Source: Prochlorococcus sp. AG-347-L17 (lineage in GTDB: Bacteria > Cyanobacteriota > Cyanobacteriia > PCC-6307 > Cyanobiaceae). From it: a stretch of 64,000 bases of DNA. Below the pieces are notes generated by a model that saw only the letters and a program-made list of their open reading frames with translations, made no database searches and was not told the DNA's origin. Made by a program: the position numbers and the translations under genes. The DNA lies in contig QCCN01000001.1 in the NCBI GenBank assembly GCA_003278925.1, positions 1 to 64,000 of the forward strand, written 5' to 3'. Positions 45,745 to 48,341 of the stretch are shown here, in pieces. Position 1 is the first letter of the stretch; each line of letters starts with the position of its first letter.

Positions 45745-46848
45745 ATGGTGTTATTAAATAAAATCAAAAATAAACTGCGTATTAACTATAGAAAAAAAAG
45801 ATGGCCAGGCCTAATAAATGCTTATAAACAATATCTCCCAGTTACAAAGCAAACTCCTATTATTTCTCTCAATGAGGGAAATACACCACTAATTTTAAGC
45901 GAATCAATAAGCAACTTAATTGGAAATGGAACAAAAGTTTTTTTAAAATATGATGGCCTTAATCCAACAGGATCTTTTAAAGATCGTGGTATGACTATGG
46001 CAATTAGCAAAGCAAAAGAAGAAGGTTGTGAAGCAGTAATTTGTGCAAGCACTGGAAACACTTCTGCTGCTGCTGCTGCATATGCTTCTAGAGGAGGATT
46101 AAAACCTTATGTTTTAATCCCAGAGGGATTTGTCGCACAAGGAAAACTTGCGCAAGCACTAATGTATGGGGCTGAAATAATATCTATTAATGGAAACTTT
46201 GATAAGGCACTTGAAATAGTCAGAGATTTATCTTCAAAACATCCTGTAGAACTTGTTAATTCAGTTAATCCATATCGAATACAAGGACAAAAGACAGCAG
46301 CTTTTGAAATAGTTGATGACTTAGGTGTAGCTCCTGATTGGCTTTGTATTCCAATGGGCAATGCAGGAAACATAACTGCTTATTGGATGGGATTTAAGGA
46401 ATATTCCAAAATAAAAAGAAATTTAAAATTACCAATTATGATGGGTTTTCAATCGGAAGGCTCTGCTCCATTAGTAAAAAATATAATAGTTAAAGATCCA
46501 GAAACAATCGCTACTGCAATAAGAATTGGGAATCCTGTAAATAGAGAAAAAGCAAAAACGGTAAAAAAAGAGAGCAAAGGAAACTTTCAGTCAGTTACAG
46601 ATGAAGAAATTATCAATGCTTATAAAATCCTTGCCAAAGAAGGAATTTTTTGTGAACCTGCCAGCGCAGCGTCAGTTGCTGGACTAATTAAAAATAAAAA
46701 TAGAATTCAGAAAGAATCTACTATTGTTTGTGTTCTTACTGGAAATGGATTAAAAGATCCAGATTGCGCCATAAAAAACAATGATGCTATTTTCAGAAAA
46801 AATATTGAACCTTCATTAAAAAATATTACAAAAATCTTAGGATATTAG
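45745..46848 (+). CDS. thrC: Threonine synthase
   Basis: ThrC converts O-phosphohomoserine to threonine using PLP. The 367-residue protein has the PLP lysine in [11 protein letters not shown] (Lys79), [18 protein letters not shown] for phosphate binding, and a [12 protein letters not shown] segment near the C-terminus. The size fits the shorter bacterial class II-like type seen in cyanobacteria rather than the longer E. coli class. It is the last gene before the origin region and is six bases after the DUF1400 gene. Confidence 0.95.
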
Positions 46849-46867
46849 AATCAAAAAAAATAGTGTC

Positions 46868-46876
46868 TGTGGAAAT
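46868..46876 (-). promoter_or_regulatory. DnaA box (one mismatch)
   Basis: On the minus strand it reads ATTTCCACA, one base from TTTTCCACA. It lies 19 bases after thrC at the left end of the origin gap. Confidence 0.6.
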
Positions 46877-46897
46877 CAATTAAAAACAAACATTTTT

Positions 46898-46906
46898 TGT
46901 TGAAAA
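46898..46906 (-). promoter_or_regulatory. DnaA box (one mismatch)
   Basis: On the minus strand it reads TTTTCAACA, one base from TTTTCCACA, in the same orientation as the box at 46868. Confidence 0.5.
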
Positions 46907-46986
46907 ATACATAATAAATAATTTTATTTGTTAGATAGTTTTTTTTGTATTCAAAAAATTCAAATTTATTCAACAATTAAAGAAAT

Positions 46987-46995
46987 TTTTCCACA
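46987..46995 (+). promoter_or_regulatory. DnaA box (exact consensus TTTTCCACA)
   Basis: An exact match on the plus strand near the middle of the origin gap. It is preceded by another partial match, TATTCAACA, at 46967-46975. Confidence 0.7.
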
Positions 46996-47040
46996 TTCAT
47001 AATATTGGTAAACTGAAGAGAAATTCTTTTTTAATTTAAG

Positions 47041-47058
47041 AATTCCACAGTTCCCACA
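47041..47058 (+). promoter_or_regulatory. Tandem pair of weaker DnaA boxes next to the trio
   Basis: AATTCCACA (47041-47049) and GTTCCCACA (47050-47058) abut head to tail, each two mismatches from TTTTCCACA. They contain nearly all the G and C of this local region and end four bases before the CTA repeats. Confidence 0.55.
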
Positions 47059-47062
47059 ATAA

Positions 47063-47074
47063 CTACTACTACTA
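47063..47074 (-). repeat. DnaA-trio: four tandem trinucleotides
   Basis: The plus strand reads CTA four times in a row. The complementary strand therefore reads 3'-GAT-5' four times, the DnaA-trio unit bound by the DnaA filament during unwinding. The tract begins four bases after a DnaA box and is followed by AT-rich DNA at 47075-47160. Confidence 0.6.
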
Positions 47075-47151
47075 ATTTCTTTATTTTATTATTAATTTTT
47101 ATATTAGATAAAGTAAAAAAATAATTTATTGAATTTCATTTACGAAAAAAG

Positions 47152-47157
47152 TATATT
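47152..47157 (+). promoter_or_regulatory. Possible minus-10 element for dnaN
   Basis: TATATT lies 26 bases before the dnaN ATG. No clear minus-35 is visible, which is normal in this group. Support is positional only. Confidence 0.3.
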
Positions 47158-47183
47158 GTATTTGTAAAAAGTTCCAAATTCCG

Positions 47184-48341
47184 ATGGAAATTATTTGTAA
47201 TCAAAATGAATTAAATAATTCTATACAACTAGTGAGCAAAGCAGTTGCTTCAAGACCAACGCATCCTATTCTTGCAAATATACTTTTAACAGCTGACGAA
47301 GGAACCAATAAAATTAGCTTGACAGGATTTGATCTTAATTTAGGGATTCAAACTTCTTTTGATGGAACTGTTAAAAATAGTGGAGCTATTACAATACCCT
47401 CAAAACTTTTATCCGAAATAGTAAATAAACTTCCGAACGAAACTCCTGTGTCTTTAGAAGCTGAAGAGAGTTCGGATAATATTTTAATAAAAAGTGACAG
47501 AGGTTCTTTTACTCTTAAAGGGATCCCATCTGATGAATATCCTAATTTACCATTTGTCGAAAGTGGTACTTCTTTGAATATTGATCCTACTTCTTTTTTA
47601 AAAGCTTTAAAATCTACAATTTTTGCAAGTAGTAATGATGACTCAAAGCAATTACTCACAGGCGTCAATTTTACATTCAAAACAAATCACTTAGAGTCTG
47701 CTTCTACAGATGGTCATAGATTGGCTGTTGCTTTAATTGGTAACGAAAAATATACCGAAAATAAAGAAAACTCATCTTCAAATGATGGTAATTTGTCAGT
47801 AACTATTCCAACTAGATCATTAAGAGAAATTGAAAAACTAGTATCTTTGAGAAGCTCAGAGAATTCAATAAAGCTTTTCTATGACAAAGGTCAGGTGGTA
47901 TTTATTTCTTCTAATCAAATAATTACGACAAGAACCCTCGAAGGCAATTATCCTAACTATTCACAATTAATTCCTGATACTTTTTCTAAGATTTTGAATT
48001 TTAATACAAAAAAATTAATTGATGCATTAGAAAGAATTGCTGTCTTAGCTGATCAGCAAAGTAGTGTTGTAAAGATTAAATTGGATGATACAGATTTAGC
48101 TTCAATCAGTGCAGATGCCCAAGATATTGGAAACGCAAATGAATCAATACCTGTTTCTTATTCTGGAGAAAATTTTGATATTGCATTTAACGTTAGATAC
48201 CTTTTAGAAGGTTTAAAAGTTATTTCTTCGGAAAATGTAATTTTAAAATGTAATATCTCAACTACACCAGCTGTTTTTGTACCAGAAGATAATCTCAATT
48301 CTTTTACTTATCTAGTTATGCCTGTTCAGGTTCGTTCTTAA
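47184..48341 (+). CDS. dnaN: DNA polymerase III beta subunit (sliding clamp)
   Basis: The beta clamp encircles DNA and holds polymerase III. The 385-residue protein has the three-domain clamp pattern, starting MEIICNQNELNNSIQLVSKAV and ASRPTHPILANILL, with SASTDGHRLAVA in domain II, NYPNYSQLIP, and the C-terminal YLVMPVQVRS that belongs to the protein-binding groove. It directly follows the origin gap and starts a plus-strand block that continues through purF. The next gene begins one base after its stop. Confidence 0.97.
   Translation: MEIICNQNELNNSIQLVSKAVASRPTHPILANILLTADEGTNKISLTGFDLNLGIQTSFDGTVKNSGAITIPSKLLSEIVNKLPNETPVSLEAEESSDNILIKSDRGSFTLKGIPSDEYPNLPFVESGTSLNIDPTSFLKALKSTIFASSNDDSKQLLTGVNFTFKTNHLESASTDGHRLAVALIGNEKYTENKENSSSNDGNLSVTIPTRSLREIEKLVSLRSSENSIKLFYDKGQVVFISSNQIITTRTLEGNYPNYSQLIPDTFSKILNFNTKKLIDALERIAVLADQQSSVVKIKLDDTDLASISADAQDIGNANESIPVSYSGENFDIAFNVRYLLEGLKVISSENVILKCNISTTPAVFVPEDNLNSFTYLVMPVQVRS

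Follow-up and report, generated by a model that had tools for sequence, protein, structure and literature searches.

A probable basal unwinding system with four identical DnaA-trios in the thrC-dnaN gap of Prochlorococcus, and its variation among related picocyanobacteria

Few photosynthetic organisms are as abundant as Prochlorococcus, and the literature we searched holds no sequence-level study of how its replication origin opens. We examined a short gap upstream of dnaN in which DnaA boxes are followed by a perfect trinucleotide repeat. The DNA analyzed (hereafter, the window) is a 64,000-nucleotide stretch from Prochlorococcus sp. AG-347-L17, whose genome comprises 1.5 Mb in 35 contigs. 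Two parts of the answer are already in print, the location of the origin between thrC and dnaN and the existence of a basal unwinding system (BUS) in cyanobacteria. The original prediction for this DNA had suggested that such an arrangement was undescribed for the group, a suggestion overtaken by a survey that, among 2070 origins, predicted a BUS for 1755 and also tested that of Synechococcus elongatus; Prochlorococcus is not named in the main text of that survey, its supplement aside (PMC8287927).

The gap measures 335 bases, is 81.5% A+T overall, and lies between two plus-strand open reading frames: thrC (threonine synthase; 45745–46848; NCBIfam TIGR00260, 321.6 bits, above cut-off) and, downstream, dnaN (DNA polymerase III beta clamp; 47184–48341; NCBIfam TIGR00663, 331.8 bits, above cut-off; Pfam PF00712). 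Within it, two abutting DnaA boxes, AATTCCACA (47041–47049, box 1) and GTTCCCACA (47050–47058, box 2), run in the same direction on the plus strand, each with two mismatches to the cyanobacterial box TTTTCCACA. After a four-base spacer, ATAA (47059–47062), comes CTACTACTACTA (47063–47074), which is four CTA triplets on the plus strand and four 3'-GAT-5' trios on the minus strand. The boxes and the CTA run are thus where the original prediction had placed them. It had also described an A/T tract of about 85 bases after the trios; the stretch at 47075–47160 is indeed A/T-rich (89.5% A+T, a level reached by only 0.09% of the window's 86-base stretches) and presumably opens easily, but it is not pure A/T. 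This tract is weakly conserved except for an ATTAGAA-like block (ATTAGAT in the window, 47103–47109), about 41 bases past the trio start and 81 before dnaN, that is present in 116 of 132 Prochlorococcus sequences, compared with 11 of 116 for a control stretch. The block is perhaps part of the dnaN promoter or another origin element. No RNA element in 46700–47400 reached Rfam thresholds.

Does this arrangement qualify as a BUS? The published search rules specify a better box with at most two mismatches and another with at most four, a spacer of 0–16 bases (13 being commonest), and at least three NAN trios in register on the bound strand (PMC8287927). In the window the two boxes are co-oriented with two mismatches each, the first trio begins 4 bases from box 2 and 13 from box 1, and there are four 3'-GAT-5' trios. 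Order, orientation and spacing therefore fit a BUS, in keeping with the proposed Bacillus-like succession of tandem boxes, spacer and trios, and both proximal boxes point towards the trio. The proposed GC-containing spacer was mistaken: the spacer has no G or C in the window and is A/T-rich in most of 130 Prochlorococcus sequences. The survey mentions a ‘previously named GC-rich region’, and its search rules do not require G or C in the spacer (PMC8287927).

The closest well-studied counterpart is the BUS of the Bacillus subtilis oriC, made of DnaA-boxes 6/7 and DnaA-trios. Like the window, it has a co-oriented box pair leading into 3'-GAT-5' repeats carried by one strand, with dnaN on the downstream side and distal boxes on the upstream side, and its DnaA has the same five base-reading residues (PMC6669920, PMC10721633). 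The two differ in that B. subtilis box 6 matches the consensus whereas both window boxes are weaker, in the lack of G/C in the window spacer, in having four identical trios rather than six differing ones, and in the position of dnaA, which is not beside the origin here. Another cyanobacterium, S. elongatus, has a BUS that was tested in vitro: strand separation by its DnaA on the native origin scaffold requires the boxes as well as the trios (PMC8287927). We liken this system to that of the window in general terms. Cyanobacterial origins in DoriC and Ori-Finder likewise have TTTTCCACA boxes beside dnaN; DoriC stores DnaA-trio-like elements, and a 2018 account remarked on box drift in GC-rich Cyanobium (PMC6323995, PMC4674748, PMC10225481).

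In the window CTACTACTACTA occurs once, and it appeared in none of 100 dinucleotide shuffles of the window. The whole 1.5-Mb genome holds two copies, and the 250 bases inspected around the second contain no box-like sequence. Single DnaA boxes with at most one mismatch are not enriched across the window (22, against 36 expected). Between 46868 and 47058 there are three such boxes against 0.11 expected (Poisson P about 2e-4, for a stretch picked post hoc).

For conservation within the genus, we collected 173 dnaN-upstream loci, including the window and with some genomes duplicated between two collections; after L051, L078 and L128 were excluded as short, they gave 133 distinct sequences. Scoring assumed an ungapped layout of 9+9+4+12 bases, and 130 of the 133 reached the threshold. 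Two of the remaining three (L046, L173) end inside box 1 and have intact trios, and the third (L079) lacks a BUS. The original prediction had pointed to close relatives as the place to look, and there the CTA run is nearly invariant rather than freely varying: CTA occupies trio 1 in 130/130 scored sequences, trio 2 in 126/130, trio 3 in 121/130 and trio 4 in 120/130, and a fifth CTA is absent from all 130. Seventeen of the 23 changed triplets are TTA, or 3'-AAT-5' on the bound strand, a change that C-to-T drift in an A/T-rich genome likewise favours. In B. subtilis the 3'-AA-5' dinucleotide is natural at trio 3, and an origin with six such trios is defective (PMC10721633). Box 1 is the same AATTCCACA in 101/130 sequences, box 2 is GTTCCCACA in 62/130 and GTTTCCACA in 29/130, and the spacers, variable in sequence, are mostly AGAA, AAAA or ATAA. 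The distance from trio to dnaN ranges from 113 to 139 bases (121 in the window) with the box-trio layout constant, and the A/T tracts of the gap differ in sequence between relatives, whereas the trio does not. Two deep-branching genomes carry the same genus code with dnaN merely 74% identical: in G080 (locus L079), which has dnaA, no BUS was found upstream of dnaN, and in G088 (L078), which is 65% complete and in which no dnaA was found, the contig stops 71 bases before dnaN.

Prochlorococcus origins were placed between the threonine synthase gene and dnaN in 2010 from GC skew and DnaA boxes (PMC2836286). In the complete relative G049, we sampled twenty 20-kb stretches and found that the skew steps from -0.048 to +0.125 at dnaN; 8 of 10 stretches in the half following dnaN are positive, and 7 of 10 in the other half are negative. 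Both the switch and the published placement are consistent with a BUS inside the chromosome origin. An intact dnaA lies on another contig of the window's genome (about 530 kb from the origin in G049), and its product can be aligned with B. subtilis DnaA (entry 8btg) over nearly its entire length. The B. subtilis residues Asn187, Ile190, Ile193, Arg202 and Glu228 touch or flank the trio bases when DnaA is in complex with them (PMC10721633), and the equivalents of all five base-capturing residues are kept in the window's genome. As some cyanobacteria that retain dnaA are no longer DnaA-dependent (PMC7198777), the presence of the site is no proof of its use.

Upstream of the proximal pair, the gap contains four more boxes. 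Two point leftward on the minus strand, ATTTCCACA at 46868–46876 and TTTTCAACA at 46898–46906, and two point rightward on the plus strand, the weak box TATTCAACA at 46967–46975 and a perfect cyanobacterial box, TTTTCCACA, at 46987–46995. Upstream DNA was sufficient in 116 Prochlorococcus sequences, and there these boxes keep constant offsets from the first base of the trios as the intervening DNA varies: leftward boxes (at least 8/9) occur at -195 and at -165 in 89/116 each, WWWTC[AC]ACA occurs at -96 in 79/116, and a box (at least 7/9) occurs at -76 in 107/116. A/T-rich genera of the same family have boxes lying a few bases at most from -207, -175, -133, -112, -96 and -75, and genera differ in which of these they hold. 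For B. subtilis, 44 bases is the minimum distance required between box 6 and a distal box, and over three turns the functional sites fall on a single helix face (PMC6669920). The two rightward distal boxes stand 54 and 74 bases from box 1, distances that would match helical phase.

We also searched 195 genomes of the class with the box-box-spacer-trio pattern TTTTCCACANTTTCCACANNNNCTACTACTA, allowing at most three mismatches and using the reversed pattern as a control. The pattern was found in 120 of the 195, at one place each, and the control in none. Comparing by eye with the dnaN places among the matches listed, we find that dnaN usually follows the pattern by a few hundred bases, though not always. 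The single copy is away from dnaN at G396:C1:1744, G355:C2:487565, G413:C1:2464157 and G382:C1:2188282 (genera g103, g80 and g65); the separation is about 14 kb in G382 and far greater in the other three, and in G396 the BUS comes immediately after dnaA. Spacers elsewhere in the class are mostly GCCC-like, unlike those of Prochlorococcus. A PF08299 (dnaA) match was present in 192/195 genomes, and 72/195 have dnaA without the pattern, partly through divergent boxes and trios and partly because the 450 bases next to dnaN gave no match. G416, G422 and G428, the three genomes in which PF08299 found no match, have no BUS pattern either. This would be expected of a trio retained solely for DnaA, but a sample of three is too small to serve as a test.

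In B. subtilis the central adenine can be replaced by cytosine, and not by guanine or thymine, because its amino group contacts Asn187 (PMC10721633). As a stricter BUS scan gave no score in several GC-rich loci of the family, we used an anchored ungapped reading instead, applied to 94 family loci; L334 fell below the score limit, leaving 93 loci from 29 other genera. The first plus-strand trio base is C in 366/372 trios. The middle base is T in 242, G in 122, A in 5 and C in 3, with T kept at trio 1 in 91/93 loci. Seen on the bound strand, A has become C at 122 of the 130 changed middle positions. G-middles increase with local GC content, and in the GC-rich loci (L192–L197, L324–L328 and others) trios such as CTACGACGACGG have the bound-strand middle A replaced by C in as many as three of the four. 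Lineages vary in which of trios 2–4 are changed, and we therefore discarded a scheme in which alternate trios are preserved.

A second search left the middle and third bases of trios 2–4 free. It matched only 84 of 392 genomes, at 85 places, because the exact pattern fixes variable box bases, and it was used for the composition of the free positions only. We used 74 of the 85 places, omitting 10 Prochlorococcus rows and an evident chance match in G294; the reversed pattern gave 5 control matches, and a few rows may be chance. In 33 additional genomes from this search, 99/99 middle bases are T or G. Within genera, a varying T at a trio middle went to G in 12/12 cases, versus 190/721 at flanking sites; with the preceding base held as C, the figures are 11/11 versus 100/350. 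Within-genus changes in the second-search set were 11 to G and 1, the one exception, to C. Most cyanobacterial middle-base changes are those that the B. subtilis single-strand rule predicts. All five plus-strand A middles belong to trio 3; genus g30 accounts for four of them and g5 for the other (L188). Those in g30 break the rule without a change in DnaA, because g30 DnaA retains Asn187 and Arg202 (L379, L385). The authors of the B. subtilis work consider it possible that DnaA homologs recognize varied sequences (PMC10721633), and trios without a middle A have been suspected (PMC8287927). We found no description of natural trios of the A-to-C type in the literature searched.

Has the protein side of the contact changed as well? 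We read the five base-reading DnaA residues in 59 genomes (31 and 28 more). All five are kept in 42/59; in the other 17/59 (L363, L405–L420) Asn187 is replaced by Ser and Arg202 by Lys, the two residues that contact the A and G of the trio in B. subtilis (PMC10721633). On the DnaA gene tree the 17 genomes form one deep Prochlorococcus clade (support 98/93, with a long-branch warning for the outgroup), and thus the double change happened once. Among the 16 clade members in which a BUS was read, the middle of trio 3 is changed in five: CAA in G522, G524 and G547, TAA in G050, and CCA in G009. Trios 1, 2 and 4 retain their middle T. The other Prochlorococcus show no middle change in 120 sequences (DnaA was read in just 13 of them), so that within the genus bound-strand middle bases other than A are seen only in this clade. 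Parsimony counts five changes at trio 3, in a portion of the tree whose branching is poorly resolved, and at least three are likely because there are three different alleles. As DnaA changed just once, the link between residues and trio is suggestive, and the g30 cases show that such middle-base changes are possible without Ser187/Lys202. Tentatively, and with somewhat more doubt than belief, we suggest that picocyanobacterial origins and DnaA may have coevolved at the base-reading contact: GC-rich genomes would have moved trios 2–4 to 3'-GCT-5' or 3'-GCC-5' and retained the amino group held by Asn187, and in the clade Ser187/Lys202 would have relaxed the reading, with trio 3 losing the amino group several times.

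Collectively, our data make it very probable that oriC, the chromosome origin, occupies the thrC-dnaN gap and that 47041–47074 is its BUS. Against this reading stand the two mismatches in each proximal box, a spacer without the G/C seen elsewhere, the 72 class genomes that have dnaA and lack the pattern, the lost DnaA dependence of some cyanobacteria, and G080, in which no BUS was found at dnaN. Could the boxes bind DnaA and the CTA run nonetheless serve a double-stranded function, such as control of the dnaN promoter by DnaA? The run lies 121 bases ahead of dnaN, and the ATTAGAA-like block between them is conserved in the way that a promoter element might be. We consider such a function unlikely, as sigma-70-like sites in the gap are at shuffle level (4 versus 3.6), the distance to dnaN varies yet the layout with the boxes is kept, and the middle-base changes in other genera mostly obey a single-strand rule.

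With so high an A+T content, further stretches of the gap should melt easily, and the first opening might lie elsewhere, for example in the A/T-rich 46907–46966, with the trio merely stabilizing it. The proximal boxes point to the trios, however, and it is the A/T tracts that vary and the trio that does not, which leaves an opening elsewhere very improbable. A perfect trinucleotide repeat can also come from slippage; chance or a microsatellite next to the origin was nevertheless rejected, its probability being close to nil, on conservation (including the lack of any fifth CTA), the shuffles, uniqueness in the genome, and the constant box distance of the class-wide pattern in 120/195 genomes.

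If 47041–47074 is a BUS, its working can be sketched from B. subtilis and S. elongatus. Two DnaA molecules would bind the tandem boxes at 47041–47058, both pointing right, and would load further DnaA past the 4-base spacer, with one molecule added on each minus-strand 3'-GAT-5' from 47063, where strand opening may begin as the original prediction had proposed. In every trio the filament would capture G and A and so hold the strands apart, and opening would then extend into the A/T-rich tract towards dnaN, the putative site of helicase loading. The upstream boxes (46868 and 46898 leftward, 46967 and 46987 rightward) may supply extra DnaA from a fixed distance.

As far as the literature searched extends, the new elements are the family-wide A-to-C series, the fixed layout of distal boxes and the Ser187/Lys202 clade; in the portions available, the DoriC and Ori-Finder accounts describe no fixed box layout, A-to-C trio variation or clade-specific DnaA change (PMC6323995, PMC4674748, PMC10225481). 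The A-to-C series suggests that search rules demanding a middle A in three trios would miss or misplace some origins. In Prochlorococcus itself the core hardly varies, and it offers in vitro work an exact target. Together, the A-to-C series and the clade with altered residues offer an evolutionary test, across species, of the base-capture model built on B. subtilis, and if coevolution at this contact is true, the choice of trio middle base would be partly predictable from two residues of DnaA.
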